Below, piece after piece: positions 1 to 38,941 of a DNA stretch of 64,000 nt (the first letter of the stretch is position 1; each line of letters opens with the position of its first letter). Position numbers and translations under genes: made by a program. Below the pieces are notes generated by a model. The model was not told the origin of the DNA. It saw only the letters and a list, made by a program, of their open reading frames with translations, and did not search any database. Source of the stretch: Victivallis sp. Marseille-Q1083 (GTDB lineage Bacteria; Verrucomicrobiota; Lentisphaeria; Victivallales; Victivallaceae); assembly GCF_903645315.1 (NCBI RefSeq), contig NZ_CAHJXL010000001.1, forward strand, positions 1,974,001 through 2,038,000, written 5' to 3'.

Positions 1-247
1 GACGGCCGACCGGCAGCAGCGCCGAAACCGCCGGGCGGAACAGCTCTCCGACCGGCGTCGATCTGATCAATTTGGCCATCGCTTCGGCGGTCAGGCCGGA
101 GCCGTGCAGCGCGGCGACGATCGCGCCGGCGGAGCTGCCGCGATACTCGTCAAATTTGACGCCGGAAGCGTCGAGCGCCAGCAATACGCCGGTTGCGCAT
201 TCGATCTGCCGGCAGCCGCCGCCGTTGATGATACATAATGTTTTCAA
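1..247 (-). CDS. Patatin-like phospholipase, C-terminus beyond window
   Basis: The N-terminal 82 residues of a patatin-family lipid acyl hydrolase are visible. Residues 7-13 form the oxyanion-type glycine loop (INGGGCRQ). Residues about 40-45 carry the nucleophile elbow GSSAG (G-x-S-x-G). The start is a TTG at 247 preceded by AAGGAGG with 5 bases spacing, because no in-frame ATG exists near. The gene begins 10 bases after the tail-fibre stop, so it is the next gene of the tail operon. The catalytic Asp lies outside the window. Family assignment is good; a role (membrane damage at exit or entry, or a lysogen trait) is only inferred from position. Confidence 0.75.
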   Translation of the reverse strand, partial: MKTLCIINGGGCRQIECATGVLLALDASGVKFDEYRGSSAGAIVAALHGSGLTAEAMAKLIRSTPVGELFRPAVSALLPVGR

Positions 248-257
248 AACAACCTCC

Positions 258-3200
258 TTATGGTAAGAAAACGTAGCCTTCCAGCTCTTTGGGATCCGTC
301 ACCGGCGTCCTGGCGCTCCAGCTTGCCTCCGGCGTCCAGTTGTCGGCCAGCAGCGGCGCCAGCAGCAGCGTATTGATCGATACCGTTTCCCAGACGGTGA
401 ACTCGTTTTGATCCACCGCATAATCCTGGATCGGCACATGGCTGCGCCAGAGCGGCAGATTGTTTTGCAGGTAAACGGCGATGGCGCCGGCGTTGGGGCT
501 GACCGTGGAGCGCAGCCGGCCGGGCATCAGGCTCTTGTTGACTGCGGAGAAATTGGCGTCGCCGCGGGCGCTTTTGTTGAGCATCCAGACGTATCCGACC
601 GCGGAAGAGGCCAGGCCGTTGTTGCCAAAGGTGTATGCCGTAATGCCCGGCACCGGGTCGAAGGTGCCGTTGGCCCGGTTGAGTTCGTCGATTTTGGACA
701 AAAACCGGCACGGCGAGACTTTGCCGACGCCGGTGGTCATGGCGCGGCCGAGCGCGTTGGCGCCGGTCAGGTTGTTGACGCTGTGCTGGATCGCCGTTTT
801 GTATTTTTCCTCGCCGGTCAGGTAATAGGCGGCCGCCCAGAGCTGGCCTCTACAGCCCGGATGGCAATTGCCCCAGGCGACGGCGGCGGTGTAGTAGTTG
901 CCGGGCGGAAAGGTGACGTCACGGTAGGCAAATTGCGCCTGGGCGGAAATCCAGTAGTCGGCTTTGGCGATGATCCAATTGCGCATATAGTCGCGGTACG
1001 CCGGCAGGGCGTCCAGCTCGGCCAGCTCCCAGAAAACGTTGCGGAAAAAAGCGTCGTCGATATCGAACAGCCGCTGGTATTCCGCCCATGCTTCCCCGGT
1101 CATATAGGTCAAATACTTGGCATCGCCGGTCAGCAGATAGAGCTGTCCCGCTGCCCAGAATTGATATTGCATCCGGTAGGTCAGCCAACCGCGATCCGGG
1201 TTGTAATTTTCCGGCTCGTCAAAAGTGTACGTCTGACCGCCGAGCGATACCTCGAAGTGGGCCAGGTTGTCAATTCCCCAGTCAAAGGCCCGGATGGCGC
1301 TGTCGGCGTACAGATCGGCCTGTTTGACCGCGCCGGCCAGCTTGAGCGCCCGCGACAACTGCGCGGCGGTCAGCGCATAGTGCAGCGAGCTGCAGGCGGT
1401 CGGCTCGGACATGCAGAACGGCTCCATTTCGGCGGCCGCGTCGGCCTGGGTCGGATGGCGCGAACACTCGATCCAGCCGGATATCCCGCCGTGCGCGCGC
1501 TGGGTGCGCCGCCAGACATCGCACCCCCACATCGCCTCGCTTAAAATATCCGGGATCCCGTTGCCGCTCTCCGGCAGATTGAGCTGGTTGTCGGTAAACT
1601 TATCCGGATACATCAGATAGGCGCCGGCGAGCGAGCGGACGCCGCCCATGTGCATATCGCGGCGGTCCCAGTCGGCCGCGTCCCACCAGCCGCCGTAAAC
1701 ATCGCGGTGCGGCACATTGCGCCACTGATAGCGGATGATGTTAAAGGCGCTCAAGCTCGCCCAGTTGCCGGCCGAATCCTTGAACGCCTCCAGGTTTTTG
1801 TAGTCGCCCGGAAACGGCGCCTCATAGGTGATATCGTGACTTTTCGCCATCGGCCAGCCGGTGTGCGGCGCGGCTTTGGCGATGCCGGACCGCTGGTGAT
1901 ACAGTCCCCGCGCGTGGATAAAAAACAACTTTTCAGCGACTTTCCGGCCGATCGAAAACGGCCAGGACCAGCCGACGCCCGGCACGTGGATGCGATAAGT
2001 TCCCTCCGTCGTCAGTGCCGAAAAATCCATCTCATAGACAATTTCGCCGCTGATTTTACGGGTGGCGCCGAGCGTATAGCCGCTGTCTTCGACGTCGCGC
2101 AGCACCGGCGTCCCGGTGTGGACGGTCTCGCCGGCGGCGTTGACGACGGCAAAGCCGGCCGCGCCGACCTGATAAGTCCCATACGATCCGAGCCAGGCGC
2201 CGAGGTAAGCGACTTTGGCGGCCGAATCGGCCGGATACCCCTCCTGGTTGACCTTGATTGCCCGGCTTGGCGTCGCCTGGCCGGCAACAAACGTCACCGT
2301 GTTGCCGTCGCCGTCGGAGATTGTGTAACCGGTTCCGTCGACCATGTCGAACGGCAACCGCAGATAGGCGAAATGGGTGATGTTGGCCGCCTCGATCCGG
2401 TAGCGCCGGGTCTGATCGTAAACATCGGGCACTTCCCAGGCGCCGGAGGCGCTGGACCAGCTGCCCAGCCAGGTTGTCGCCTGGTTGTCAATCTGAAAAT
2501 AGTCGTCGGCGTCATAGTTGTCCAGGATACGCGGTTCGTAATCGGCCTGCAATTCGATCATCGAGTAGCGATAGTAAAAATCATGCAGGTATTCGGCTTT
2601 GTAGCCATTCCGGAAATTCTGCTCCATAGCCGGCAGCGTGCCGGTATACTCGGCCCGCAGCCTGGCGTTGTAAAAATCCTCATAATTGCCGCCGACGGCG
2701 ACAGTGTTTTTGTCGATCACAAACACTTTCAGATCGGCGGTCAGCGGGACGGCGGCGATATCGGCCGGCTTGCCCTCGCGGGCGCGCGGCGAATCATTGA
2801 GCTGCGGCGGCTTGGGCGTCGTTTCGCCGCCGCCCGGATCGTCCTCGAAGACGTAGCCGGCCAGCGACGCCTCCGATTGCACCTCGGCCAGCGTCAGCGG
2901 CCGGTCAAAGATTTTCACTTCATCGATCAACACATTGTCCTGGGTTTTGTTGTCGTGCATGCCGATGCCGAACGAGTGATCGGCGCCGCCGATGTTGGTT
3001 AACCGCGAGGCATGGCTTTTATAAACCAGCACCCGGCTGGTCTGTTTGGCGACGCCGTTGATGTACAATTGCGTGTCGAAATACCAGGCGTTGTTGAGTT
3101 CTGCGGCGGTCAGGCCGTCCGCCTCGGTCAGCGGCGGAGTGACGGTCAGGCAAAGATGGCTCCAGGCGTTTTGCGTCGCCCAGTCGCCGGTATAGGTCGG

Positions 3201-4472
3201 CGAGGTGTTCATCCAATACAGGCAAACCGCCTGATAGCTGAGGCTCAGCCCCAGGCAGGTTGTCGCGGTCGTCCCGTCGTACCAGCGTACTTTGGTGCTG
3301 TTGTTGCGTCCCGCGGATGCGGTTTTGACGAAAAACGACAGGCTGAAACCGCCGGCCGAGGGATCGATTTCGACGCCGTCGGTCCAGATGCCTTTTTTGC
3401 CCGGATCGGTCGTGTAAAGTTTGGTCTGATAAGAGGCGCCGCGAACGCCGTCGAGCGAGTAGTCGATCGCTTCACCCTCGACGGCGTTGGCGCCGGCCAG
3501 ATGGTGGACGATTTCCTCGGCGGAGTTGTTCAGCGGCCAGTGATAGGCCGGCTGCAAAGCGCTGGCGGCCCGGACCACCCGGTAAAAAGTCAGTTTGGCC
3601 GCTGCGTCGCCGTAGCCCCAGACGGTCGATTGGTCCGGCGTGACCGGCCTGGCGTAAAGATGCCCGAGATGGGCGCCGACGCCGAGATCGGCCGGCAGGT
3701 TGATTGTGACGGTCTGTGTCCCGGTATAGACCGTGGCCGGCAGATCAAAAAGATCGCATTCCAGCGTCCAGCACCCGGCCGGCGGGTACGGCGTCACGGT
3801 GACGGTAAAACTGTTTTCATCGACCGGAACGATTTTGGCCGGGTACTGCTCGCCCTCGACGGCCCGTTCGCCGGATACGCCGTCCAGCGACGACGACATC
3901 GACAACCGGTCATAGGCGGCCGGCGGGTACACCTGGGTATCGTCGTCGGCCTGTACCCGGACAACATCGCTGCGGATGCCGTCCCGGTAGATAAAAACAT
4001 CGACAATCGGCCGGGCAATGCCGCCGGTAAACGCCAACAGCGCGTTTTCATCGGTGACGCCGGCGACCGAATAGCCTTTGCCCTTGCGGACGGTGCCCAG
4101 CGTCGCCCAGTCGCCGGCGAACCAATAGACGGCGCGGCCGCCGGCGCCGTTGACCAGCGCCGGCGCGGCGTCAAGATCGACGGTGATATCCAGCGGCGCG
4201 GCCAGGGTGATCGCCTGTCCGTCAACCGCCAGGTTCAGCCCGGAGCCGGCCAGGGTGATTTGTCCGGTCAGGTCGCTGCCGCCGCACCGGATCGCCGACA
4301 TCGCCACATGGGTATGACCGGCCGCCGCTTTGCCGTCCAGCAACGTTTGCAGATTGGTCACATCGGCAATCGGATGATCATGGACGGCGTTCGCCAGGCC
4401 GAGCATTTCGGCCGTCAGCGTAAAATTGCCGTACTGATCGGGATAGTACCCTTTAATCGTATAAATACGCAT
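258..4472 (-). CDS. Tail fibre protein fused to a GH9 (cellulase-like) domain
   Basis: 1404 residues. Residues 1-60 carry a tail-fibre H-x-H repeat region (GKAAAGHTHV). About 315-540 form a LamG/concanavalin-like domain ending in IDEVKIFDRPLTLAEV. From about 737 (IKVNQEGYP) an Ig-like CelD_N module leads into a GH9 barrel: GGWWDAADWDRR at about 930-941 retains both Asp of the DAGD signature, PESGNGIPDILSEA is at about 965, and WETVSIN near 1360 supplies a candidate acid Glu. The start follows GGAGAG. GH9 enzymes hydrolyse beta-1,4-glucans, so as a virion fibre this would be a capsule- or glycan-degrading depolymerase. No signal peptide is seen, as expected for a virion protein. The GH9 call is strong; substrate unknown. 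Confidence 0.85.
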   Translation of the reverse strand: MRIYTIKGYYPDQYGNFTLTAEMLGLANAVHDHPIADVTNLQTLLDGKAAAGHTHVAMSAIRCGGSDLTGQITLAGSGLNLAVDGQAITLAAPLDITVDLDAAPALVNGAGGRAVYWFAGDWATLGTVRKGKGYSVAGVTDENALLAFTGGIARPIVDVFIYRDGIRSDVVRVQADDDTQVYPPAAYDRLSMSSSLDGVSGERAVEGEQYPAKIVPVDENSFTVTVTPYPPAGCWTLECDLFDLPATVYTGTQTVTINLPADLGVGAHLGHLYARPVTPDQSTVWGYGDAAAKLTFYRVVRAASALQPAYHWPLNNSAEEIVHHLAGANAVEGEAIDYSLDGVRGASYQTKLYTTDPGKKGIWTDGVEIDPSAGGFSLSFFVKTASAGRNNSTKVRWYDGTTATTCLGLSLSYQAVCLYWMNTSPTYTGDWATQNAWSHLCLTVTPPLTEADGLTAAELNNAWYFDTQLYINGVAKQTSRVLVYKSHASRLTNIGGADHSFGIGMHDNKTQDNVLIDEVKIFDRPLTLAEVQSEASLAGYVFEDDPGGGETTPKPPQLNDSPRAREGKPADIAAVPLTADLKVFVIDKNTVAVGGNYEDFYNARLRAEYTGTLPAMEQNFRNGYKAEYLHDFYYRYSMIELQADYEPRILDNYDADDYFQIDNQATTWLGSWSSASGAWEVPDVYDQTRRYRIEAANITHFAYLRLPFDMVDGTGYTISDGDGNTVTFVAGQATPSRAIKVNQEGYPADSAAKVAYLGAWLGSYGTYQVGAAGFAVVNAAGETVHTGTPVLRDVEDSGYTLGATRKISGEIVYEMDFSALTTEGTYRIHVPGVGWSWPFSIGRKVAEKLFFIHARGLYHQRSGIAKAAPHTGWPMAKSHDITYEAPFPGDYKNLEAFKDSAGNWASLSAFNIIRYQWRNVPHRDVYGGWWDAADWDRRDMHMGGVRSLAGAYLMYPDKFTDNQLNLPESGNGIPDILSEAMWGCDVWRRTQRAHGGISGWIECSRHPTQADAAAEMEPFCMSEPTACSSLHYALTAAQLSRALKLAGAVKQADLYADSAIRAFDWGIDNLAHFEVSLGGQTYTFDEPENYNPDRGWLTYRMQYQFWAAGQLYLLTGDAKYLTYMTGEAWAEYQRLFDIDDAFFRNVFWELAELDALPAYRDYMRNWIIAKADYWISAQAQFAYRDVTFPPGNYYTAAVAWGNCHPGCRGQLWAAAYYLTGEEKYKTAIQHSVNNLTGANALGRAMTTGVGKVSPCRFLSKIDELNRANGTFDPVPGITAYTFGNNGLASSAVGYVWMLNKSARGDANFSAVNKSLMPGRLRSTVSPNAGAIAVYLQNNLPLWRSHVPIQDYAVDQNEFTVWETVSINTLLLAPLLADNWTPEASWSARTPVTDPKELEGYVFLP

Positions 4473-4475: not shown

Positions 4476-5360
4476 TCAACTCTCCACGATAAAAACTTGA
4501 TACTTGACGCCGGCAACTTTGGCAAACGCCTCCCATTGCGCCGCGGTGCCGACAAAGACCTTGAGCGTCGTGCCGTCAGCCGTCGCCAGGTTCTGTACCG
4601 CCGCCGCCGCGCCGGCTGCCGCCGCGTTGACATTGATCGTGATGGTGTTGCCGACGACGTCAAAGGCGACATTATCGCCGGGCGCCACCTGCACCGCGCC
4701 GGATATCACGCTGTTGCCGATCTGAATGCCGGAGACCAGCTCGTGCGTATGTCCGGAGTCCGCCTTGCCGGACAGCGCCGCGGAGAGGCCGGTAATCGAG
4801 GTGACGGCGTGTTGATGTGCGGCCGGCGCCGCATTGAGCAGTTCGGCGGTCAGGTTGAAATTGCCGTTTTCATCCGGAGAAGTGTGATTGACCGTGTAGT
4901 CAAGTGTCCCGCCGCCGGTGGCGCTGATGATTTTGGCGCCGGTTTCGGCATTGTCGGAGATTGAGATGTTGGCGCCGGCTTCCAGTTTCGGCGCGGCCGT
5001 CAACGCCTGCTGCGCTTTGTTCAATGCGTCGCCCGATTCGGTTTTGGCCGCCTGGGCCACCTGGGCCGCGCCGGTCGCCGCCGTCACCGCCGCCGTCGCC
5101 TCCTGCCGGGCGGCGCGGATATCCGCTGCCGACTGTTCGACCGCCGCCGTCGCTGCCGCCGCTGATTGTTCGATTGCCGACAGATCCTCCGCCAGCCCGG
5201 ATACCTCGCTGATAGCATGCCGGTGCTCCGCCGCCGCTTTGCCGGCCAACGCCCCCTCCAGGTTGACGATATCGCTTTGCGCGTGACGGTGGGCCGGGAT
5301 CGTGCCATCGCCGGCAGTCGGGCCGCCGCTCGGCACTTCAAATTTTACATCACTGGCCAT
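4476..5360 (-). CDS. Phage tail fibre protein with H-x-H repeats
   Basis: Three short repeats of the tail-fibre type are visible (IPAHRHAQSDIVNLEGAL, AAEHRHAISEV, SGHTHELVSGI). They flank an Ala-rich stretch at about residues 60-125 predicted to form a coiled coil. The C-terminal 40 residues (TLKVFVGTAAQWEAFAKV) resemble fibre tip segments. The ATG at 5360 fits a GGAG site better than the upstream TTG at 5366. The gene overlaps the end of the preceding gene by 11 bases and ends 3 bases before the GH9 fibre start, so the two are probably translated together. The sequence DYTVNHTSPDENGNFNLTAE is echoed at the start of the GH9 fibre (YYPDQYGNFTLTAE), which suggests a duplication or matching oligomerisation segments. 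Confidence 0.75.
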   Translation of the reverse strand: MASDVKFEVPSGGPTAGDGTIPAHRHAQSDIVNLEGALAGKAAAEHRHAISEVSGLAEDLSAIEQSAAAATAAVEQSAADIRAARQEATAAVTAATGAAQVAQAAKTESGDALNKAQQALTAAPKLEAGANISISDNAETGAKIISATGGGTLDYTVNHTSPDENGNFNLTAELLNAAPAAHQHAVTSITGLSAALSGKADSGHTHELVSGIQIGNSVISGAVQVAPGDNVAFDVVGNTITINVNAAAAGAAAAVQNLATADGTTLKVFVGTAAQWEAFAKVAGVKYQVFIVES

Positions 5361-6021
5361 AAACAATCTTCTCCAAAGTAATTTTTTTTACGCCGGCCAG
5401 GCTGTCTTTTCTGGCCCAACCATCCTCGATAACACCCCGGATGAATTTAACCGCGGCGGCATAGAGCGCCAGGTAATCTGCCGGACAGTCGATCGTCAGA
5501 TAGCCGTCCTGGGTCTTGATTTTGACCGGGTATATCAATGCATGGCGCAAATCGCATTCGGCCTTGAGATTGCATTGATTCTCAAGGCTCAGCCAAAAAC
5601 GATGATCTCGATAAACAAAGCCGGATAGTATCTTGGCATCGGTTTCGGCGTCAATCCGGCCGGAGGCGCGGCGCAGCAGCTCCGCCCGGTCGGAGGTCCA
5701 GCGGCCGTTGGTCAGGCGGTGACAGTCCGACGGCGGCGGTTCGGCCGAGCAGTCAGCCGGAAGCGGCCCGGGCGCATCGATGACGATGCCCTCCCGGTGT
5801 TCCTCGGAATAGACGGTTTTACCGCGGTGGTCCTCCTCCTGCAGCCATTCCCGGCCATTCCACCGCGCGACGTGTCCCACCTTGCGGCGCGGACGGACGG
5901 TGACGGCGTCAGGCGGAATCAGGTAACATTCCCGTTTCTCAACCCGGCTCAGCTCCGGATCGGTCGCGGCGTCACCGGAGCCGGAATAATACCCGTTTTT
6001 GTCAAAATAATAGAGCTTCAT
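5350..6021 (-). CDS. Tail-fibre-associated protein, DUF4376-like
   Basis: 223 residues. The N-terminus (MKLYYFDKNGYYSGSGDA) resembles small tail-fibre assembly or cap proteins. The central segment DAETDAKILSGFVYRDHRFW followed by SLENQ matches the DUF4376 pattern found in phage tail modules. Tail-fibre assembly proteins help the fibre trimerise, and that role is inferred from position between two fibre genes. A strong AAGGAGG site precedes the ATG at 6021. Confident as a phage tail-cluster gene, less so on function. Confidence 0.65.
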   Translation of the reverse strand: MKLYYFDKNGYYSGSGDAATDPELSRVEKRECYLIPPDAVTVRPRRKVGHVARWNGREWLQEEDHRGKTVYSEEHREGIVIDAPGPLPADCSAEPPPSDCHRLTNGRWTSDRAELLRRASGRIDAETDAKILSGFVYRDHRFWLSLENQCNLKAECDLRHALIYPVKIKTQDGYLTIDCPADYLALYAAAVKFIRGVIEDGWARKDSLAGVKKITLEKIVYGQ

Positions 6022-6037: not shown

Positions 6038-7048
6038 TCAGTAGCGGATTATGAATTTAACAGCGGCGTAGGGCGGCAGCACTTCGGCGGAATTTTCTTG
6101 GAGTGCGACATCGAAAGCGTACGCGTTCCCCTCGCGCCCGGTTGGGATGTGCGCGGAGCGGCCGCCGCCGGACGGGACCGTGACGACGCGCCCCGGGGAA
6201 TACCCGTATTCGGCGTCCAGCTCGCGGAAGGTCAGATCCAGCCCGGCTCGCGGCGACTGTCCGCCGCCGGTTTCGCCGGAAGCGGCGCCGCCGCGCAGAA
6301 ACCGGGTTCGCAGATTCGGCAGATTGAAGGTTGTGGCCCCGTCTCCCGCACCCCATGCCGTACCGATTGCGGTGAAAAGCGCCGCGTAAAGTGTCCGCGA
6401 CACCGCCGCGCCGGCACACTCGAGGAAACCGGCCGGGATAACGTTCCCGGCGTAAGGCATGATCGCGCCTGGCGGCATGGCCGAGAGCGGAGCGTAGAGG
6501 TCGCCGTGGGTATGCCCGATTGGCGAATAGCGGCTATCATGGCCGTGCCCGATTGGCGAATAGCGGTCGTCGTGGTTATGATTGAGCGGCGCGTACAGTC
6601 CGGACAAATCCTGCTGCCAGGTTTCAGCGTTTACGGTGATTCCGGTCAAGTCTGCGACGTTGACGATCTGCAGCCCGAAATTTTTGATGATTACATTGCC
6701 GGTTGAAAAGCCGGAAGTCTTGACTTTGTGCTGCGCCGGCTGCACCGCCACCGCCACCAGCGTCGAACCGGAAGCCAGGCCGACGATATTAAACGAGAAA
6801 TCGCCGACCGCGGCGTCCAGCACCGCCGACCAGACCGCGCAATCCGCCGCCAGCAGCCCGGAAGTAAGCGCCGTGGCGGTGTGTCGGGTCTCCGCCGCGG
6901 TCAGCGTGAAATCGGCCGGCGGCGCCGCCGAGACGTCGAGGCCGTCGCGATAGCCGAACAGCATTTTGTCGATGGCCAGCGCCTGGCGGTTCGCCTGGCA
7001 CGCGGCGATCAGCGCCCGCCCGGCGGTGGTGATAATACAGTTACTCAT
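6038..7048 (-). CDS. Tail collar-domain fibre protein (gpH-like)
   Basis: 336 residues. The N-terminal 150 residues resemble the fibre attachment region of P2-type gpH (TTAGRALIAACQANRQALAI). Three repeats follow at about 160-195 (HNHDDRYSPIGHGHDSRYSP). A tail collar domain sits at about 200-255 (PPGAIMPYAGNVIPAGFLECAG, NLPNLRTRFLRGG). The last 15 residues (LPPYAAVKFIIRY) are a typical collar-protein end. The Shine-Dalgarno site GGGGGAG lies inside a copy of the dispersed hairpin repeat that abuts the start codon. Confidence 0.85.
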   Translation of the reverse strand: MSNCIITTAGRALIAACQANRQALAIDKMLFGYRDGLDVSAAPPADFTLTAAETRHTATALTSGLLAADCAVWSAVLDAAVGDFSFNIVGLASGSTLVAVAVQPAQHKVKTSGFSTGNVIIKNFGLQIVNVADLTGITVNAETWQQDLSGLYAPLNHNHDDRYSPIGHGHDSRYSPIGHTHGDLYAPLSAMPPGAIMPYAGNVIPAGFLECAGAAVSRTLYAALFTAIGTAWGAGDGATTFNLPNLRTRFLRGGAASGETGGGQSPRAGLDLTFRELDAEYGYSPGRVVTVPSGGGRSAHIPTGREGNAYAFDVALQENSAEVLPPYAAVKFIIRY

Positions 7049-7155: not shown

Positions 7156-8139
7156 TCATTCATATTCTTTCACCTCGAAATTAAACTTGAATTGCAGATT
7201 TTTCGGCAAACGGCTGTTCAGATCCAGATAATTCTGGGCCAGCGCCACCACTTCGGTCGAGACGTACACTTTCGCCACCTTGACCGGGTCGCCGAGGCTG
7301 CCGGCTCCCTCCGGAGCCAGCCCCATCAGCACCGGCGGCACCCGGTGCGCGGCCCGCACGTCGTCGGCCGAAATGTTTTTCACATTCGCAAATTCGTCTT
7401 TCTGCGAAATGTCGCCGATGTTCATCAACTGAAAAGCGTTTTCGCCGCCGTTCGGAATATGCAGAAAAACCGATTTGAAGTTGCCGACGCCTTTGCCGTC
7501 GCGAAATTTTTCCAGCAAAGCATCGCGCAGCGCCGGCTGCAGCTTCGGATCGCGTGAGTAGAGGATATACCCCAAATGAGCGCCGTTGACGAAATAGCGA
7601 CGCCGGAACAATGTGGCGTCTTGATTCAGCAGCGCCGACTGCAATCCGCCTATCCAGTCCGGAATCCCGTAAATCTGCTGGCAGGGATCGTACTCTTTCA
7701 GGTGCAGCACCTGGTCGGGCGTATAGTCCTGATACCGGCCGCCGTTCAGCAGCCGGCGCAGCTTCACTCCGTCGGCCTTGACCCGCATGTTCAGTCCCGG
7801 CAGATGGCGCAATCCGGCAATGCCGCCCAGCCGGTTGCGTTCCACCAGCAAGTATGAATTGCCGAACGTCAATAAATCAATCAAGTTCGCGCGCAAATCC
7901 GCCACCGGCAACGGCCCGGAAATATAGGTTTTTGCCGTTTGATTGCGCCGGAACACAATGCAACTGCCGTGCTGGCCGTTGGCGCTGCGCATTTTCGCCA
8001 GGCCCCACAGGTCGATCGGCGGCACGTAGTATTCGCCGCACGGCGTCGGGAATACCCCCAGATAGTCCAGGATCCGTTCGCCGTGCACCGGCTCCGGCTC
8101 CCCGAATGTGAAACACGCCTTGTCAATGTCAATATCCAT
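7156..8139 (-). CDS. Phage portal protein (P2 gpQ family)
   Basis: 327 residues from the ATG at 8139 (AAAGGAA upstream). Conserved portal stretches are visible: FPTPCGEYYVPPIDLWGLAK near the N-terminus, LLTFGNSYLLVERN at about 90, DQVLHLKEYDPCQQIYGIPD at about 140, and ISADDVRAAHRVPPVLMG at about 260. The portal forms the dodecameric DNA gate of the head. P2-like phages carry it next to the terminase, but here it lies after gpI, about 18 kb from gpP. The protein itself looks complete. Confidence 0.9.
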   Translation of the reverse strand: MDIDIDKACFTFGEPEPVHGERILDYLGVFPTPCGEYYVPPIDLWGLAKMRSANGQHGSCIVFRRNQTAKTYISGPLPVADLRANLIDLLTFGNSYLLVERNRLGGIAGLRHLPGLNMRVKADGVKLRRLLNGGRYQDYTPDQVLHLKEYDPCQQIYGIPDWIGGLQSALLNQDATLFRRRYFVNGAHLGYILYSRDPKLQPALRDALLEKFRDGKGVGNFKSVFLHIPNGGENAFQLMNIGDISQKDEFANVKNISADDVRAAHRVPPVLMGLAPEGAGSLGDPVKVAKVYVSTEVVALAQNYLDLNSRLPKNLQFKFNFEVKEYE

Positions 8140-8157
8140 CAATCAAATTCCTTTCCC

Positions 8158-8565
8158 GCAGTTGCGGGTACGGCGCAAGCCGCACGCAATGACGGAGGGT
8201 GTGGCCTCCGAAAAGTACCCGGAGCTTTGCGGAGCAAAGACCCGAGCCTCAAATGGCGAGGGCAACTTTTTGGGAGAATCAATATGAACATCCATTCTCG
8301 AAGTTGTGAGTACGGCGCGAGCCGCACGGAACAACGAAGAGCGAGGCTCCGAAAAGTACCCGGAGCTTTGCGGAGCAAAGACCCGAGCCTCAAATGGCGA
8401 GGGTGGCAACTTTTTGGGAGAATCAATATGAACATCCATTCTCGAAGTTGTGAGTACGGCGCGAGCCGCACGGAACAACGAAGAGCGAGGCTCCGAAAAG
8501 TACCCGGAGCTTTGCGGAGCAAAGACCCGAGCCTCAAATGGCGAGGGTGGCAACTTTTTGGAGAA
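8158..8565. repeat. Dispersed hairpin repeat, three tandem copies
   Basis: The 428-base gap between gpI and the portal gene is almost wholly repeat. Three minus-oriented copies lie in tandem, and the last two share an exact 144-base period (ATG-AACATCCATTCTC at 8284 and 8428). Each holds GTACGGCG..GCCGCAC, AAAAGTACCCGGAGC, the hairpin CTTTGC-GGA-GCAAAG, CCCGAGCCT..GGCGAGGG and CAACTTTTTGGGAG. The reading frames through it are by-products of the period (a multiple of three). Confidence 0.8.
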
Positions 8566-8567
8566 CA

Positions 8568-9092
8568 TCAATAAACCGCCTTGAAATTATTGGTTGTGCA
8601 ATCAATAACGAACGGCCGGACGCCGAGCTGCCCCGGCGTCGCCGGCTGTTCAAGGATATAACGGCGGCAGGTGCGGCCGTAAAGCGCCACCAGCTGTTCA
8701 AACAACCCACGGTACGGCGCGAATTTCGCGTCGTCAAGCTGTACGACGATCACGTCCCAGTCCCGGCCGTCGGTGCGCTCATGCTGCACCAGGCTGCCGA
8801 GCTCCAGCCGTTCCCAGATCCGCATGAAGCCGACGACGCTTCCGGCGTCCAGCGAATTGGCGAACGCGTGTTTGACCCGGCGCCGGAAAAGCGCGTCGCC
8901 TTCACCGGACAGCCTGGTGACGCCGCGGTGCCAGGCGAGCAGCGCCAGCACCGGCTGTGGACAACTCTCCGCATCGGCCAGCGCCGACAGCCGATCGAGC
9001 GCCGCCCGCAACCGGTCGAACATCGCGCCGGCGACCGCCGCCACGTTCCGGAGCACCGGCCCGTTCTGCCAGAATTTCAGTTTGATATCCAC
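8568..9092 (-). CDS. Tail protein I (P2 gpI family)
   Basis: 174 residues, matching the usual size of gpI, a baseplate protein acting with gpJ. Family features are SCPQPVLALLAWHRGVTRLS at about 45 and GFMRIWERLELGSLVQHERTD at about 90. The GTG start at 9092 overlaps the gpJ stop codon TAG by one base, which implies coupled translation. It is followed by the triple hairpin repeat rather than by fibre genes. Confidence 0.8.
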   Translation of the reverse strand: MDIKLKFWQNGPVLRNVAAVAGAMFDRLRAALDRLSALADAESCPQPVLALLAWHRGVTRLSGEGDALFRRRVKHAFANSLDAGSVVGFMRIWERLELGSLVQHERTDGRDWDVIVVQLDDAKFAPYRGLFEQLVALYGRTCRRYILEQPATPGQLGVRPFVIDCTTNNFKAVY

Positions 9093-10288
9093 TATTCAGC
9101 CTCCGTCACCGTTACGCTGGACAGCTTCGGCAACTCCAGAGCGGACGCAATGTCGCCGCGGTTGAATTGGATGCTCAACAGCCCCGGTACCGCCGCATGC
9201 AATTCGCTGGCCAGCCGGGAAAAACTGAACGTCGAGAACGGCCAGCAATGAGTCATTGTAAAATTTGAATTATCCCAGAACGCGCATTTTATCCGCTGTT
9301 GAATTTCGGTCTTTGCCGCAGCAGCGGCGGCGGCGTCCAGCGCGGTGTCGAGCCGGACGGTCGCGGTCAACTCGTAGTACGTAACCGGGATGGTCTTGCA
9401 TTGCAAATCGTCGCCGTGGCCGTGGTTGCCCCGGGCCGCGATGTAATCGTTGAGATCGGCCAGATAATCGGTAGGCACGGTGCCGGCGTCGAAAATGATA
9501 AAACAATCCGCCGAGCCCGGCCCGCGCGGCGCCGAATGGTCGAAGTACACCCGATCCGGCCGGACGCCGGCGCGTTCGGAGATCATCGCGCGATACTTCG
9601 CGTCGGTGTGCCAGTCGCCGACGCTCAAAAACCGGTCGCGGATCCGGAGCCGCAGCTCCCCGTCGGTCTCCTCGTCCGCCCCCGGCTGCGCCAGATAGTC
9701 GGCCGCGTTGGTCACGGCGCCGAGCCGCGGCACGTCCGAATCCAAAATTGAATAATAACCGGCGCCGAGGTTGTAGCCGCTGCCGGCCGCTTCGGCTTCG
9801 ACCGGCACGACGGCCGTTTCGGCGTCTTCGGCGATCACCGCCGCCGCGGTGGTGGCGACGCGGTAAATTGTGCCGTTTACGGCAATCGTCCGGACACGGG
9901 TTCCGGCCGGGATTTCGACGGGGCCGACCGCGCCGGCCGCGCGTGAAAAGGTAATTTTGCCGGTCATCTTGACCGCCGGCTTGCGGGTCAGCCCATGCAG
10001 CCAGGCGTGCAGGTCAAGCGCCGCGCCGGTCGCGGTCTTGACATAAAAGCCCGGAACCGCCGCCGTCACCAGATAGCGCGCCAGTTCGCGCGCCGGCGCC
10101 GCGACCGCCGACCGGACGAAACACCAGAACGCCGAATATTTCGACGGGTTGGCGATCGGCAGATGCGCGGCGTCGGCCAACTGCCGCATGTCGGATTCAA
10201 ACGCCGCGTCGTCGGCCGGAAAGCCCGCCGCGATCACGCCGTCGAAAAAGATTTTCTGCTCCGGCGTCAATTTGCTTCGATCAATCAT
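9092..10288 (-). CDS. Baseplate assembly protein J (P2 gpJ family)
   Basis: 398 residues from the ATG at 10288, preceded by AAAGGAGAG. Baseplate J hallmarks are VEIPAGTRVRT at about 140, AGSGYNLGAG at about 185, and the ETDGELRLRIRDRF block at about 230 followed by DRVYFDHSAPRGPGSADCFI. It forms the baseplate wedge with gpI. An earlier in-frame start exists but would overlap the DUF4160 promoter on the other strand. Confidence 0.9.
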   Translation of the reverse strand: MIDRSKLTPEQKIFFDGVIAAGFPADDAAFESDMRQLADAAHLPIANPSKYSAFWCFVRSAVAAPARELARYLVTAAVPGFYVKTATGAALDLHAWLHGLTRKPAVKMTGKITFSRAAGAVGPVEIPAGTRVRTIAVNGTIYRVATTAAAVIAEDAETAVVPVEAEAAGSGYNLGAGYYSILDSDVPRLGAVTNAADYLAQPGADEETDGELRLRIRDRFLSVGDWHTDAKYRAMISERAGVRPDRVYFDHSAPRGPGSADCFIIFDAGTVPTDYLADLNDYIAARGNHGHGDDLQCKTIPVTYYELTATVRLDTALDAAAAAAAKTEIQQRIKCAFWDNSNFTMTHCWPFSTFSFSRLASELHAAVPGLLSIQFNRGDIASALELPKLSSVTVTEAE

Positions 10289-10320
10289 GAAAAAAACTCT
10301 CCTTTCCGCACCGTTGCGGC

Positions 10321-10349
10321 TTGACAAATCGCCGATTCAGCGTTAATTT
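10321..10349 (+). promoter_or_regulatory. Candidate promoter of DUF4160 pair 1
   Basis: TTGACA, 17 bases, then TAATTT. It lies 64 bases before the DUF4160 start and points against the tail operon. Downstream, AAACCTAAACGCTTG resembles the AACCTAACGTTTG found inside the promoter of the second pair. Confidence 0.5.
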
Positions 10350-10412
10350 GCTGTATAAACCTAAACGCTTGGGTTTTAATTATTATGTTTTGCAGGAAAG
10401 GTTTTGAGAACA

Positions 10413-10995: not shown

Positions 10996-11022
10996 CGCCG
11001 CATAAAAAGCCAGTCCCAACCC

Positions 11023-11053
11023 GACGGCCAGCAAAACGGCCGCCGCTTTTCTT
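11023..11053 (+). terminator. Candidate terminator of DUF4160/DUF2442 pair 1
   Basis: GACGGCC-AGCAAAAC-GGCCGCC is followed by GCTTTTCTTTT. The stem is imperfect. The segment is clearly homologous in base sequence to the terminator at 20220-20252 that closes the four-gene cassette. Confidence 0.5.
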
Positions 11054-11371: not shown

Positions 11372-11373
11372 TT

Positions 11374-11408: not shown

Positions 11409-11433
11409 TGGGAATCCGGACTACAGTATCCAT

Positions 11434-11799: not shown

Positions 11800-11809
11800 C
11801 ATTTTCTCA

Positions 11810-12033: not shown

Positions 12034-12034
12034 C

Positions 12035-14245
12035 TTAGCTTTGCAGCATCATATAGTCTTCAAGTTCGCCCGGCCCCGGAAACGCGGTCGTGTTGATTGT
12101 AACGCCTCCATAGTTGGTGGTTCGATTGTTGACGCTGCTCCGGATGCCGCCGGCTGCCACGTCGGGATTGCGGCGCTGCGCGGTCGCCTGGGCCATCACC
12201 GGCTCGTTTTCGCGCATGTCCCGGACTTCGACGCTGCCGCCGCCGGTGATCCAGCTCCAGAATTTGCCGATCGCGCCGGTAACGGCGTCGATCACGCCGA
12301 GCACCGTATCCAGCGCCGCCCGGACGCCGCCGGCGACACCGTCCCAGATCCAGCCGAAAAAGTCGCCGATCGCCGTTCCTATCGCCCGGATTTTCTCCCA
12401 CAGCCAGGCGAAGCCGGCCGCGACAAAGTTCCAGACGCCGGAAGCGATATCTTTTATGACGTCCCATTTCCGGAACGCCAGGACAATCCAGCCGACCGGC
12501 CCCAGCAATGCCAACAGCCATTCACCGAAGCCGGCAAAGAAAGCCTTGAGCTTCTCCCAGCACCACGCCGCCGCGCCGACGACCGCATTCCAGCAATCGA
12601 CGGCGGCCGCCGCAAGGTCATCCCACCAGTAAACCAGCGCCGCAATCGCCGCAATCAACGCGACAATGCCGACGACCAGCCAAGTGACCGGGTTGGCCAG
12701 GAGAGCCGCCGTGAACGCCCAGACCGCCGCAATCGCCGGCAGCAGCGCCGCGTTCAGCAGCCAGACTGCGCCGGCGTAAACCAGCATGCCGACTTTCTGG
12801 GCGATCATCACGGTATTCTGCCACACCAGCGCACCGGCCAGCTTGATGTTCGTCCAAGTGAACATACGGCATAATTTCACCGCCGGCCCCATTGTTTTGG
12901 CCCACAACATTTGCGTAACCGCGTTCAGGCGCTGGGCGAAAGTCATCGAATGCGTCGCCGCCGAATTTTTCAGGCACCAGGCCCAGACAATCCGAAGTTC
13001 CATTCCCAAAGCACGGATAAATTTAATTACGCCCATAACAGTCATTGCCGCGCCCCATGCCGTGGAAAAACCGGTAATGGCGATTGCCGTCAACGCGAAA
13101 GCCCAGCGCAGCGGCGGCAGATTGTCCAGCAGCCAGGCAATCATCGACATGAATCCGGACGCCGCCCATAGCGCGGCATTGACCGCCGGCAGCAAAGTAC
13201 GCCCCAACGTGACCCGGATTGAATTCAGCATTCCCTTGAAAGAATCCAGTTGATCGGTCAGATCCTTTGCCATCTTCTGCGCCGGGCCGGTGTCGGACAC
13301 TTTTTGCAATGTGGCGATATTGTCGCGCAACGCGGAGGTTTTGCCGAGCATGGAGGTGATCGCCGCCACCGCCTCGTCGGAGCCGAACGCTTTTTTCAGC
13401 TGCTGCGCCTCCATGATATCGATCGTGTCGCCATAGCGCGCCTGAATTTTGTCGAGAATATCGGCCATCGGCAGCATGTTGCCGGAGGCGTCGGCAAAAT
13501 TCATGCCGAGCTTTTGACCGGCTTCGCCGGCCTTGCCGAGAAACGCCCGGTACTGCGTCGCGGCGACGCTGCCGGAGCCGGTCACGGTCTGCAGCATGCC
13601 GAGCACGCTCATCTGTTCGTCCATGCCGACGCCCTTGCTGGCGCCGGCCGCGCCCAGTTGCGCGAAAGCCGCCTGCATGTTCATGCCGTCGGTGCGGAAC
13701 ATCTTGACCGCCTCGGCGGTCTTGCCGGTCAACCGGTCAATCCACTCGGCCCGGCCGATTTTCGCCGCGTCTTTCTCGAATACGCCGAGCATCGTCGACA
13801 TGTAGCCGGTGATCGTCCCGGCGTCGGCTTTGGTCGCCCTGGCCAGCAGCGCGCTGTTGACGGTGAACTTGGCCAGTTCGCCGTTCTCCAGTCCCTGAAA
13901 CGCGCTTTGAATCGCATAACCGGATTCGACGATATCGGCCGCGCTGCCGCCGAACTCGCGGGAGAATTTCAATGCCTCTTTGCCGAGTTTCTGAATCTCA
14001 TCTTCCGCCGCCCCCAAGGAACGGATGCCGCCGAGCGCTTTCTCAAATTCCCGCGCCGGGCCGGTCAGGCCGTTCAATGACAGGACTGCTCCGGTTAACG
14101 CCGCACTGCCTTTGCCAAACATTACAAATGCTTCGCGGCTTTTTTCCTGTACCTTTTCCAGCGATTTGCACAACCCTTTCGACGGGCCGCTCAATTTATC
14201 CAGCAGCAATACGCTGAACGTTAATTTTTCCAATGCCGAGTTCAT
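12035..14245 (-). CDS. Tail tape measure protein (TP901 family)
   Basis: 736 residues. The TP901 core domain (GLTGPAREFEKALGGIRSLG, ADIVESGYAIQSAFQGLE, GTITGYMSTMLGVFEK) covers about 55-330. Several hydrophobic helices follow at about 370-600, typical of tape measures, which set tail length and cross the host membrane. No good ribosome binding site lies before the ATG at 14245. The IS110 insertion sits just upstream and may have removed or replaced the native leader. Confidence 0.9.
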   Translation of the reverse strand: MNSALEKLTFSVLLLDKLSGPSKGLCKSLEKVQEKSREAFVMFGKGSAALTGAVLSLNGLTGPAREFEKALGGIRSLGAAEDEIQKLGKEALKFSREFGGSAADIVESGYAIQSAFQGLENGELAKFTVNSALLARATKADAGTITGYMSTMLGVFEKDAAKIGRAEWIDRLTGKTAEAVKMFRTDGMNMQAAFAQLGAAGASKGVGMDEQMSVLGMLQTVTGSGSVAATQYRAFLGKAGEAGQKLGMNFADASGNMLPMADILDKIQARYGDTIDIMEAQQLKKAFGSDEAVAAITSMLGKTSALRDNIATLQKVSDTGPAQKMAKDLTDQLDSFKGMLNSIRVTLGRTLLPAVNAALWAASGFMSMIAWLLDNLPPLRWAFALTAIAITGFSTAWGAAMTVMGVIKFIRALGMELRIVWAWCLKNSAATHSMTFAQRLNAVTQMLWAKTMGPAVKLCRMFTWTNIKLAGALVWQNTVMIAQKVGMLVYAGAVWLLNAALLPAIAAVWAFTAALLANPVTWLVVGIVALIAAIAALVYWWDDLAAAAVDCWNAVVGAAAWCWEKLKAFFAGFGEWLLALLGPVGWIVLAFRKWDVIKDIASGVWNFVAAGFAWLWEKIRAIGTAIGDFFGWIWDGVAGGVRAALDTVLGVIDAVTGAIGKFWSWITGGGSVEVRDMRENEPVMAQATAQRRNPDVAAGGIRSSVNNRTTNYGGVTINTTAFPGPGELEDYMMLQS

Positions 14246-17081: not shown

Positions 17082-18200
17082 TTAGTCGTTGGACAAATCC
17101 AATCCCAGATACACAGTAATCTTCTTCGGGCAGTTGTAGGGTTGCGCGGTGATGGCGATCGCCACCTCGGTCTTGCCCGTCCAGGTGATGGCGATCGCGT
17201 CGTCGCCGGGCGGATAGATCATCGCCGGAAATTCAATCCCGCCCATCACGAAAGATTTTGCCGCGTCGCGCAGCGGCCCGGCGAAATAAGTCTTATTCTG
17301 GGCAATCGACGCGGCGGTGCTGTTCAGCCGCCGGTCGCCGATCCGCCGGATCGCCCGGATTCGGACGCGGCGCGCCAGGTAGTCGATAATCCGCCGGTAC
17401 TCCACCACCTGGAAGTCGCCGCCCTCGGCGTCGAGCATCGGATGGTCAGCCCAGTAAATGCCGTCGTAGCCCGGATACCACTGGGGGACGCTGAACCGCG
17501 CCTCGGCCAGCGCCTTGATCGTCGGCATATCCAGCGGCGCTCCCGGCCCGTCGACCGGAGCCGCGCCGAGGCCGGTCACCGCGCCGGTCATCGTCCGCAT
17601 CGGCGTGTCGGCGATCGAGGCGGACGGATTGCACAAGCGGCCGCACACCGCGCCCAGGTTGTTGCCGTGCAGCAGCGGCACGATCGCCACCCGGTCGGCG
17701 GCGACGCCGGTATTCAGTTCTTTGAGCTTGGCCAGGTAGGCCGACCAGCTTTCGGCCGAACCGATCGAGGCGCAACAAAGGTTCACAAAAACGAATTTCG
17801 CATAGCGCGAAACGATGCTTTCGGCGCAGCTCTGCGCCGCCAGGACTTCCGCCTGGCTGCTTACCGGGTCACAGACTGCGATCGCTTCGACGTTCAAATC
17901 GTGCGGTTTTTCCAGCGCGGCCAAAACCGCGGTTTTCCAGTCCTCGTCCGCCTCCAGCGCGATCGCGTAGGCGAAAAATTCCGTGTCTTGCGCGTTGGCG
18001 ACCGCCGCGGCGAGTTGCGTTTTAAGGTTGCTCGCCCCGGCGCCGAACAAACTGTCCAGGTCGCTGCCGGCGCCGACGGTCAGAATGCCCGCCTGTGCGC
18101 CGTCCGCCGCCGTCCCCACGTACAGAAAAGTTTTCTCGCACTGCTTGAACGCGCCCTGCGAATCGTTGACCTGTGTTACCGTAACGCTGCCGATTGCCAT
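17082..18200 (-). CDS. Tail sheath protein, DUF2586 family
   Basis: 372 residues. MAIGSVTVTQVNDSQGA at the N-terminus and the run VEYRRIIDYLARRVRIRAI then NSTAASIAQNK and YLGLDLSND match DUF2586 proteins of HP1/K139-type phages. These take the place of the contractile sheath. AAAAGGAAAAAATT precedes the ATG. It heads the tail block of this operon. Confidence 0.85.
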   Translation of the reverse strand: MAIGSVTVTQVNDSQGAFKQCEKTFLYVGTAADGAQAGILTVGAGSDLDSLFGAGASNLKTQLAAAVANAQDTEFFAYAIALEADEDWKTAVLAALEKPHDLNVEAIAVCDPVSSQAEVLAAQSCAESIVSRYAKFVFVNLCCASIGSAESWSAYLAKLKELNTGVAADRVAIVPLLHGNNLGAVCGRLCNPSASIADTPMRTMTGAVTGLGAAPVDGPGAPLDMPTIKALAEARFSVPQWYPGYDGIYWADHPMLDAEGGDFQVVEYRRIIDYLARRVRIRAIRRIGDRRLNSTAASIAQNKTYFAGPLRDAAKSFVMGGIEFPAMIYPPGDDAIAITWTGKTEVAIAITAQPYNCPKKITVYLGLDLSND

Positions 18201-23417: not shown

Positions 23418-23419
23418 GA

Positions 23420-25465: not shown

Positions 25466-27238
25466 ATGAAATATTCCGAAACACAAAAGGCGGCGGCGCG
25501 AAGCCGGTATTTCGACGGCGAAACGGTCGAGGTGATCGCCGACGCGCTGGCGATTGAGCGCCGCACGCTTTACAACTGGATCAGAACCGGCGGCTGGCGG
25601 CCGGCGGCCGGCCGGGAGAACGTCGACGGCCTGATCGAATGCCGGATATCGCAGCTCCTGCGGCAGGAAGAAAAGAGCCTGCCGCAATTGCTGGAGCTTG
25701 AACGGCTGCTGGAGCATGTTGAGCGCCGCAAACTCAATGCCGCGCGCCTGGCCGACAAACGGCGGTCGGCCGCCGCCGCCGAAAGCGACGCCGAACCGGC
25801 GGCCGCCGCGCCCCCGGAAACGGCGCCGCGGAAAAAACGCGGCCGCAAACCGGGCAAAAACGACTTCACCGCTATCGACGAAATCGACCTGATGGACAAG
25901 TTCCGCGACGGGCTGTTCGCCTATCAGCTCCAGCTCTGGGAAAAGCGGCGGGAGCGGACGCGGAATATTCTGAAATCGCGCCAGATCGGCTTGACCTGGT
26001 ATTTTGCGCGCGAGGCGTTCACCGACGCATTGTTGACCGGCCGCAATAAAATCTTCATTTCGGCCAGCCGGGCGCAGTCGGAGATTTTCAAGGACTATAT
26101 CCGGGAGCTGGCGCTCGAATGGTTTGAAATCGACCTCAAGGGCAGCGACAAAATCGTCATTCACACGCCGCACGGCGTCGCCACCTTGTATTTCCTCTCC
26201 ACCAACAGCGCCACCGGCCAGGGCCGCCACGGCGACGTCTACATCGACGAATATTTCTGGATCCCGAATTTCAGCAAGGTCAAAAAACTGGTCGGCGCTT
26301 CCTCCGCCCAGGCGCAATGGTCGCGCACCTTTTTCTCGACGCCAAGCGCCACCACCCATGAGGCGTACCCGTTCTGGACTGGCGACGAATACAACGAACG
26401 GAACCGGAAAACCAATAAAAAACTGGCGGAATTTCCGGGCCGGAAAGAATTGCGCGACGGGTTCCGGCTCTGTCCGGACGGCCAGTGGCGGACGATTATC
26501 ACGCTGGACGACGCCGAGCGGATGGGCTGCACGCTGTTCAACCGCGCCGACCTCGAGCTGGAATACTCCCCGGAAGAGTTCCGGCAGTTGTTCGGCTGCG
26601 AGTTCATCGACGACGCCGGCAGCGTTTTCTCGTTCAGCCAGTTGTGCGCCTGCCTCGGCGACAAAAACCTGTTCCCGCCCGGCCTCGACAAGCAACCGGT
26701 CTGGATCGGTTACGACCCGTCGCGCAACCGCGACGGCGCCTGCATCGTCGTCGTCGCGCCGCCGGGCACTTATCGCGGCACGTTCCATGTGATCGAAAAA
26801 ATCACGCTGCACGATGTGAGCTGGCCCGCGCAGGCGGACTTCATGAAGGGGTTGACCAAAAAGTATCATGTCCAACGGATCACGATGGACGCGACCGGCC
26901 CAGGCTCCGGCGTCTCCGAATACGTGCAATTGTTTTTCCCGCGCGCCGACGGTATCGTCTACACGCCGGAGCAGAAAAATCAGCTGGTATTGAAGGCGCA
27001 GCAGGTGATCGGCGACGGCCGGATCAAATGGGACGCGTCATGGTCGGATATCGCCGCCGGCTTTTTGCAGGTCAAGCGCGCCGTCGGCGCGAAAAGCGAC
27101 AAAATCCTGTACTACGCCAACCGCAGCGAAAAGACCGGCCACGCCGACGCCGCCTGGGCGATCATGCAGGCGATTTCCAACGAAGGTTTGATCCTGCCGG
27201 ACCAGGAGCGCAAAAGCCGCTGGTCGATCGGCGCTTGA
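25466..27238 (+). CDS. Terminase large subunit (ATPase), P2 gpP family
   Basis: 590 residues. N-terminal helix-turn-helix (about 1-45, GETVEVIADALAIERRTLYN). A low-complexity Ala/Lys linker lies at about 95-135. The ATPase has Walker A-like SRQIGLTW at about 171 and Walker B VYIDEYFW at about 258. The RNase-H-like nuclease has GYDPSRNRDG at about 415 and DATGPGSG at about 475. It packages DNA through the portal. It is transcribed away from the gpO operon as in P2, but without gpQ beside it. Confidence 0.92.
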   Translation: MKYSETQKAAARSRYFDGETVEVIADALAIERRTLYNWIRTGGWRPAAGRENVDGLIECRISQLLRQEEKSLPQLLELERLLEHVERRKLNAARLADKRRSAAAAESDAEPAAAAPPETAPRKKRGRKPGKNDFTAIDEIDLMDKFRDGLFAYQLQLWEKRRERTRNILKSRQIGLTWYFAREAFTDALLTGRNKIFISASRAQSEIFKDYIRELALEWFEIDLKGSDKIVIHTPHGVATLYFLSTNSATGQGRHGDVYIDEYFWIPNFSKVKKLVGASSAQAQWSRTFFSTPSATTHEAYPFWTGDEYNERNRKTNKKLAEFPGRKELRDGFRLCPDGQWRTIITLDDAERMGCTLFNRADLELEYSPEEFRQLFGCEFIDDAGSVFSFSQLCACLGDKNLFPPGLDKQPVWIGYDPSRNRDGACIVVVAPPGTYRGTFHVIEKITLHDVSWPAQADFMKGLTKKYHVQRITMDATGPGSGVSEYVQLFFPRADGIVYTPEQKNQLVLKAQQVIGDGRIKWDASWSDIAAGFLQVKRAVGAKSDKILYYANRSEKTGHADAAWAIMQAISNEGLILPDQERKSRWSIGA

Positions 27239-37444: not shown

Positions 37445-38941
37445 ATGAATAATCAAGCTAAAACATATTTATTGTATGCGCGAGTATCACCTAAAGGATC
37501 AAGCTGGCATGGTGGCGAAACATCCGTGCCGCTCCAATTGGCAGAATGCCGCGATTATGTTCTGCGCCGCGATCCGGCTGCACGCTTTATTGAAGTAACC
37601 GATGAACTGAGATCCGGCAAAAGTTTGGATCGCCCAGGTATACAGCAAATCATTGCTGAACTGGATTCCGGAACTTGCGAGTGGGATTGTATCGTAGTCT
37701 GGCACCTCGACCGCTTAACACGGTCGCTTGCCGATTCTATCCCGCTTTTTCAACATCTCTATGATGCCGGCAAAGGCTTAATGTCAGTCCGGCAGAATAT
37801 CGACATGTTCAGCGCCGGCGGCCGCTTTATGCTAAACATTTTTGTCGCAGCAGCCCAATACGAGCGAGAAATGATATCGGAGAGAACCGCCATGAAAATG
37901 ACCAGTATCGCCCAAAAAGGCAAAATCCCATACGGCCGTATTCCCATTGGCTATAAGCGGACAGCCGGTAATCGTATTGTCGTTGATCCGGACGGCGCCG
38001 CCGTAGTCCGCGACATTTTCGATTCTTATGTTTCAGGAACGGCAACCAACGACGAGCTGTTCCAGCGTTACCATGACCGGATAAAATCCAAAAATACCTT
38101 TTATAAAATTCTGCGCAACCGGCTCTACATCGGAGAAGTCGAATACGACGGTAAAATTTTCAAAGGTGAACATGAGGCCATTATTGATCATGTTGTATTT
38201 GACCAGGTACAAAATATGCTCCCTGGGCACAAGTACAAGGCGCCTCGGCCAGGCGCCCAAAAGTATAAATATTTATTGGCAGGTTTGGTAAAGTGTTCTT
38301 GCGGTCGGCAAATGACCAATATATCCGTCCTTAAAAAAGGCCGGCGCTACGCTTATTATAAATGTACGGAACCAAGCTGTAAAAATGCCATCAATGCGGA
38401 AAAATTGGACACGGCGATTCTGGAAAAAATTAAATCCATTGCTCAAGATACCGATTTTTTACTACAGTTGTCAAAAGAATGCGAGCAAGAGCAAAAAGAC
38501 AAAAAGGTATCACTTTTACCGGAAATGCGGCAAATTGAGCAACAGCTTGCCAGCGCTCACGCAAGCGAAGTCAATATCGCTAATATGTTTAAAAGTGGGC
38601 TGGTCACGCGGGAAAATATGGTATATTGGAATGCTGAATTGTCTGCGGTCGTCCAACAGCAGACCGAGCTCCGCGAAAGGCAATCCCAAATTCAGCGCAA
38701 TATCGACTATCAGGAAAATGACCTGTCAAAACAAATCCTGCAGACGGCTTCCGGATGGGCGCAGCTCCTCGATAATTTAAGCGATGAAGAAGAATCTTAT
38801 TCAATCAAACGAAACTTAATTCTGGCCATCGTTCAAAATGTCGTCTGCACTGCAAAAGGCAGCTTTGATTTGAATTTGGTTATGTCTAAGAGTATAGAGT
38901 GGTACCCGGGAGAGGAATCGAACCTCCGACGCAGGGTTTAG
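37445..38941 (+). CDS. Large serine integrase
   Basis: 498 residues. Resolvase domain: catalytic Ser15 in YARVSPKG, RSGKSLDRPGIQQII, and VWHLDRLTRSLAD at about 85-95. Recombinase domain about 165-270 (GRIPIGYKR, YKILRNRLYIGEVEYDGKIF). Zinc beta-ribbon about 285-315 (CSCGRQM ... KCTEPSC). Coiled coil about 345-435. The last residues PGEESNLRRRV are encoded by the antisense of tRNA-Arg, so the attachment site probably lies inside the gene end. It integrates and, with a directionality factor, excises the prophage. Confidence 0.92.
   Translation: MNNQAKTYLLYARVSPKGSSWHGGETSVPLQLAECRDYVLRRDPAARFIEVTDELRSGKSLDRPGIQQIIAELDSGTCEWDCIVVWHLDRLTRSLADSIPLFQHLYDAGKGLMSVRQNIDMFSAGGRFMLNIFVAAAQYEREMISERTAMKMTSIAQKGKIPYGRIPIGYKRTAGNRIVVDPDGAAVVRDIFDSYVSGTATNDELFQRYHDRIKSKNTFYKILRNRLYIGEVEYDGKIFKGEHEAIIDHVVFDQVQNMLPGHKYKAPRPGAQKYKYLLAGLVKCSCGRQMTNISVLKKGRRYAYYKCTEPSCKNAINAEKLDTAILEKIKSIAQDTDFLLQLSKECEQEQKDKKVSLLPEMRQIEQQLASAHASEVNIANMFKSGLVTRENMVYWNAELSAVVQQQTELRERQSQIQRNIDYQENDLSKQILQTASGWAQLLDNLSDEEESYSIKRNLILAIVQNVVCTAKGSFDLNLVMSKSIEWYPGEESNLRRRV
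38900..38941. other. Putative prophage attachment site (right end)
   Basis: The integrase frame ends inside the tRNA 3' half, and host-type genes begin right after. Phages that use tRNA genes restore the 3' end on insertion. The partner copy should lie left of position 1 and is not visible. Confidence 0.45.

Follow-up and report, generated by a model that had tools for sequence, protein, structure and literature searches.

The 64,000 nucleotides of Victivallis sp. Marseille-Q1083 analysed here (assembly GCF_903645315.1, contig NZ_CAHJXL010000001.1, positions 1,974,001 to 2,038,000; hereafter the window) hold a prophage in whose tail operon a single frame joins a fibre-like N-terminus and a LamG domain to a full CelD_N-GH9 module that keeps its candidate catalytic residues, as an earlier note made from the sequence had described. 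This LamG-CelD_N-GH9 tail-fibre gene (258..4472, minus strand; 1404 aa) is delimited by its open reading frame (ORF), Pfam and phage-family matches, relatives and a structure match. The ORF is real: 1404 codons run from an ATG uninterrupted by stops, the frame lies open throughout on a 3.88 Mb contig, and the ATG is preceded by a ribosome-binding-like GGAGAG and lies 4 bases past the stop codon of the fibre gene upstream. Chance is excluded for the GH9 assignment by the Pfam E-values, the 40% identity over ~900 residues to an independent relative and the fold match. The GH9 module on the tail fibre is real and probably functional.

Four domains pass the Pfam curated cut-offs, and all lie on the minus strand. 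The N-terminal fibre module (residues 1-120, 4113..4472) includes a phage tail repeat (PTR) at residues 29-56 that passes narrowly (27.7 bits against a cut-off of 27); the N-terminus also matches the tail fibre family phrog_8443 (E 2.8e-5), and residues 1-120 share ~39% identity with part of the preceding fibre gene. A linker recognized by sequence comparison (residues 121-310, 3543..4112) leads to the LamG domain (Laminin_G_3, residues 373-532, 2877..3356), a family-specific domain conserved in cellular and phage GH9 relatives (residues ~564-735, 2268..2783) and an Ig-like CelD_N domain supported by Pfam and by relatives in the PDB (residues 736-833, 1974..2267). The GH9 catalytic domain spans residues 894 to ~1377 (342..1793). 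Its Pfam match (PF00759, residues 894-1261) reaches 63.6 bits against a cut-off of 27.7 (E 2.9e-17). This match ends at position 389 of the 444 in the profile, and both the family alignment and the structure comparison extend the module to about residue 1377, beyond the late Glu.

The family alignment (30 rows, with three of 33 sequences, L037-L039, dropped) bears out the predicted Asp pair and late Glu. D931 and D934 (1680-1682 and 1671-1673, minus strand) align with the DAxD of 3x17, 6dht and CelD and are invariant in all 30 sequences, as are E1357 (402-404, minus strand) and a second late Glu, E1362. The predicted model matches (alpha/alpha)6 GH9 structures end to end. Its aligned ends (model residue 818 to residue 575 of 1clc) place E1357, model residue 797, near chain residue 554, as judged by those end positions; the catalytic acid of CelD is Glu555. 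By phmmer the best solved relatives were 3x17 (E 4.1e-21), BoGH9A (6dht) and CelD/CbhA entries, and a family-profile search returned 11 distinct PDB sequences, all named GH9-type cellulases except 6fhj, which is titled xanthanase. A library of predicted viral-protein structures gave no convincing GH9-like match (one of 259 matches at E ≤0.001, an unnamed entry with a TM score of 0.20). A collapsed GH9, set beforehand as grounds for abandoning the proposal, is rejected by the invariant catalytic residues and the fold match.

We consider it fairly probable that the protein is a fibre-borne depolymerase, forming the enzymatic tip of a side fibre or tail fibre in a temperate phage with a contractile tail. 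Its PTR-bearing start and the linker would join it to the fibre assembly encoded upstream by the PTR, assembly and collar genes, the LamG domain would probably bind glycan, and the CelD_N-GH9 end would cleave a beta-linked, probably beta-1,4, backbone of a surface polysaccharide on a Victivallaceae-type host, thereby opening the way to the membrane. The analysis shows gene integrity, domain content, the tail-operon setting, the GH9 fold, the conserved candidate catalytic residues and purifying selection in related phages; presence in the virion, catalytic activity and the identity of the glycan we infer.

That the glycan may be the host's own is suggested by the surroundings of cellular GH9 genes. 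A relative is present in 40 of the 78 genomes of the host family, and elsewhere in the window's genome lies another GH9 gene, a cellular one with 37% identity; neither this gene nor the conserved domain at residues ~564-735 figures in the earlier note. The earlier note had left the choice between host capsule and dietary glucan undecided; gene neighbourhoods lean, with moderate strength, to host surface glycan, since surface-polysaccharide genes stand in five of the eight cellular contexts examined. The host paralogue adjoins a divergent glycosyltransferase family 4 (GT4) gene, a neighbour expected by chance in about 1 case in 100 (by arithmetic from 21 GT4-type matches in the 4.82 Mb genome). 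In genome G069 a GT4 gene directly follows GH9, with Glf and family 2 glycosyltransferase genes beyond; G075 has RmlD and an RmlB-type dehydratase; G076 has WecG/TagA and GT4 genes 2.7 kb away; and G063 has a polysaccharide flippase-type gene, its neighbouring glycosyltransferase falling below cut-offs.

Several points weigh against a virion depolymerase acting on host glycan. In both catalytic loops (model residues 372-376 and 794-797) the predicted local distance difference test (pLDDT) score is below 50. The AlphaFold2 model of LamG failed (pLDDT 48.9), and the binding role of this domain and its segment in the selection analysis depend solely on the Pfam match. A transposase gene interrupts the prophage and the portal gene is displaced, so particles may not be made. 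The neighbourhood argument rests on eight contexts without a random-locus control, and the three without a surface-polysaccharide gene found (G017, G013 and G003) are all LamG-bearing, like the fibre; G017 has three sulfatases, and in G013 an ABC_sub_bind gene is accompanied by a PAS histidine kinase, a pair that looks the same in G003 by eye. Finally, the host has no cellulose synthase over cut-off: the CelA model TIGR03030 scores 22 bits against a cut-off of 699. None of the 78 family genomes reaches this cut-off, four (G013, G015, G017 and G064) scoring 410-437 bits, and one of 14 control genomes passes it. On this evidence a cellulose-like capsule on this host is not supported and was set aside.

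At locus L070 (1888-5996) a cellular LamG-GH9 gene has an ABC_sub_bind gene and then a large PAS histidine kinase after it, and L069 looks alike by eye.

Some of these points would fit a different role, in which the fibre binds and trims dietary plant beta-glucan and gathers virions where fibre-degrading hosts feed, as a catalytic anchor and not a capsule depolymerase. The missing cellulose synthase is consistent with it, as are the closest solved structures (3x17, 6dht and CelD), which act on cellulose or xyloglucan, and the sulfatase genes adjoining the LamG-bearing cellular relative of G017 (L068), an arrangement typical of polysaccharide foraging. We nonetheless find this role unlikely, given the glycosyltransferase beside the own-genome paralogue and the surface-polysaccharide genes in the majority of contexts; one may also reason that a cutting anchor would free itself from its substrate.

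The GH9 fold could also have been retained for glycan binding, as a receptor module that catalyses little or nothing. Fibres frequently just bind, the window sequence sits on a long branch (1.34) and the catalytic loops are modelled with low confidence, but both Asp and both Glu are kept in the other phage fibres as in the rest of the alignment, and the enzyme part is under strong purifying selection in related phages, that is, it is kept; binding alone is thus quite improbable. Between L041 and L043, NG86 dN/dS is 0.091 for the family domain and GH9, 0.109 for the last 510 codons, 0.146 for the LamG part and 0.165 and 0.293 for the small fibre ORFs. Between L043 and L080 it is 0.133 for CelD_N-GH9, 0.217 for LamG, 0.172 for the middle and 0.150 for the linker, and with L082 the values are 0.187 and 0.193.

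LamG-GH9 genes in a fibre context, for which the earlier note had proposed a search in prophages, recur in an IMG/VR contig (L043) and in two genomes of the order (G064 and G122), and in all three the small fibre ORF is distinct from the LamG-GH9 ORF, the two overlapping in different frames. On the 44.9-kb contig L043, two small ORFs with 44-48% identity to the window fibre's N-terminus (residues 1-120) precede a LamG-GH9 frame of 1384 codons (1317 from ATG) that shares 34% identity with window residues 175-1404; CelD_N and GH9 pass the Pfam cut-offs and LamG falls under. Upstream lie terminase, portal, head-protease and tape-measure genes, whose proteins have no BLAST match to the window prophage proteins, although both tape measures match phrog_28. 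G064, of another genus, has the same gene split across two contigs with ends at 7517 and 7523 of L043 (93-95% DNA identity). In G122, of another family of the order, the LamG-GH9 frame is intact at 1349 codons, shares 82.5% identity with that of L043 and is preceded by the same two small ORFs, with a tape measure farther upstream; a second G122 copy is fragmented at contig ends, one piece with a frame change. The overlap of the 148-aa fibre ORF with the LamG-GH9 ORF (6176-6619 and 6606-10556 in L043) is conserved in L040 of G064 and L080 of G122 and contains an ATG preceded by GGAGG; coupled starts and a programmed frameshift are both possible. Linker residues 175-276 of the window protein resemble the start of the LamG-GH9 ORF in L043 and L040 (28-30%). 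As the relatives have the two pieces as overlapping ORFs, only the window gene is a single-ORF fusion.

A first IMG/VR scan with the window sequence alone returned no loci and its fibre N-terminal part had no pattern match there, whereas the alignment-based scan returned nine loci, with PF00759 over cut-off in all nine records; IMG/VR contigs may include host DNA. With the pre-GH9 part of L043 as query, three of 137 genomes of the order had matches (G000 weakly, G064 and G122). The whole L043 protein gave GH9 matches in 82 of 387 genomes of the phylum (E ≤1e-20), G064 and G122 not being among the matches listed. In a search for relatives among cultured phages (50,697 phage records) neither the window's GH9 end nor the GH9 of L044 had a match, the GH9s of L047 and L049 matched one unannotated faecal fragment (MT837902.1), and the N-terminal 371 aa of the window protein matched 12 records, each over just 7-14% of the query.

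Other IMG/VR contigs carry GH9 without the LamG-fibre part: L044 and L045 with a UvsX-like recombinase (L045 having two tandem GH9 genes at 7593-9965 and 10257-12629), L046 with terminase and portal genes, and L047 and L048 with tail or head-type genes nearby. Such free genes would suit an auxiliary metabolic gene (AMG) that aids the infected host's polysaccharide digestion, the fibre fusion being incidental. GH9 is listed among viral AMGs (PMC8725595), a rumen viral GH9 was active on carboxymethylcellulose (CMC) after cloning (Yan et al. 2023, PMC10465536), and for phages of Lentisphaerae other glycoside hydrolases have been put forward as AMGs (PMC11361711). In the window, however, the enzyme is not free-standing: GH9 shares its ORF with the fibre N-terminus as the C-terminal part of the polypeptide, in a late tail operon and with no signal peptide as judged by eye, and other phages show this fibre context too, which makes this role very improbable. 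That assembly or annotation joined a cellular GH9 gene to a fibre gene, an outcome the earlier note had named as refuting and one the separate ORFs of L043, L080 and G064 might favour, is close to refuted by the open frame on a long contig and by independent LamG-GH9 genes in the tail operons of three independent assemblies, and an assembly chimera is rejected.

In trees (38 rows, midpoint root, L047-L051 left out and the duplicate gene records L001, L004, L007, L008 and L011 not counted a second time), the fibre GH9s cluster (support 96/89) on long branches outside the cellular clade; with one side omitted, the other falls outside that clade or into an unresolved fork. The LamG-bearing cellular relatives (L012-L015 and L017-L019) share the order LamG, family domain, CelD_N, GH9 and are 31-36% identical, but they have signal-peptide-like starts (by eye) and cellular contexts. 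A broader possibility, which we put forward only tentatively, is that GH9 moves among Lentisphaeria phages as a depolymerase cassette, a LamG-GH9 tip that shares its origin with the hosts' GH9s and is common to contractile P2/HP1-like phages and to another type whose head genes are unrelated. It would cut a beta-linked surface glycan made or trimmed with the help of the hosts' GH9s.

Virion depolymerases are already known. The window protein resembles tail fibre and tailspike depolymerases in its anatomy, a predicted glycan-cutting domain on a receptor-binding tail protein, but its catalytic part is GH9, and no beta-helix tailspike was seen, residues 1-299 lying outside the models. From CelD_N GH9 endoglucanases (CelD 1clc/4cj0, 3x17 and 6dht), with which it shares the module, the DAxD and the late Glu, it differs by an identity of only ~20-24% over aligned residues, by its fusion to a phage fibre and by the extra domain at 564-735. 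The view in the earlier note that GH9 is mainly a plant-polysaccharide enzyme omits the rumen viral GH9, which is described as a free AMG related to Ruminococcus with no mention there of a fibre fusion, and the GH9 xanthanases PspXan9 (6fhj/6fhn) and MiXen (PMC10881899). The latter cut bacterial exopolysaccharide and differ from the window protein as secreted bacterial enzymes, not virion parts, with 19% identity over aligned residues. In the literature searched, whose coverage stops short of subscription papers and preprints, no tail fibre with GH9 as its catalytic part came to light; two apparent matches were irrelevant, GH9 being a strain name in PMC6690015 and the match in PMC9535894 being GH95. 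If a fibre-borne GH9 depolymerase is right, the range of enzyme folds placed on phage fibres would be broader, the protein would serve as a ready-made probe for Victivallales surface glycans, about which little is known, and viral GH9 genes tallied as auxiliary metabolism may be infection tools.

By its gene content, the element is a P2/HP1-like, contractile-tailed prophage, and the fibre-GH9 gene sits among its tail genes. Upstream on the minus strand follow the PTR-bearing fibre gene (4476..5366; Pfam, PHROG), a tail fibre assembly-like protein (5350..6021; phrog_1807, phrog_105), a tail-collar fibre (6038..7048; Phage_tail_fib and Collar), tail protein I (8568..9092; Tail_P2_I), a baseplate J-like protein (9092..10327; Pfam, PHROG), the tape measure protein (12035..14245; phrog_28) and the contractile tail sheath (17082..18200; phrog_907). 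Past the sheath lie genes for a tail tube-like protein, head completion, capsid, scaffold and small terminase, with the gpP-like large terminase subunit (25466..27238) on the opposite, plus strand. A serine recombinase (37445..38941, plus strand) adjoining a tRNA-Arg (38900-38975) probably marks the integrase end; no att repeat of at least 16 bases is shared by window 38601-39600 and L003 1-18000. Downstream, a patatin-like phospholipase gene (L003 18472-19248, overlapping window 2-247) directly follows the GH9 fibre gene and precedes a LydA-type holin, with an HP1 ORF34 baseplate protein and a phrog_2258 baseplate protein also outside the window.

The prophage looks rearranged, since its P2-type portal gene (7156-8142; phrog_68) stands among the tail genes at a distance from those for terminase and capsid (22659-27238). 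Three near-identical ~144-nt units form an array (8142-8548) that separates the portal gene from the gene for tail protein I, and part of the unit recurs near 21808 and 22533. Two transposase genes (14736-15824 and 35460-36125, one matching phrog_2199 and the other DDE_3) are a possible sign of decay. A family 2 glycosyltransferase gene (27614-28516) adjoins the terminase, and the G064 phage has a TibC/heptosyltransferase-type gene (L040 2037-3308); both may point to surface-altering lysogenic conversion.

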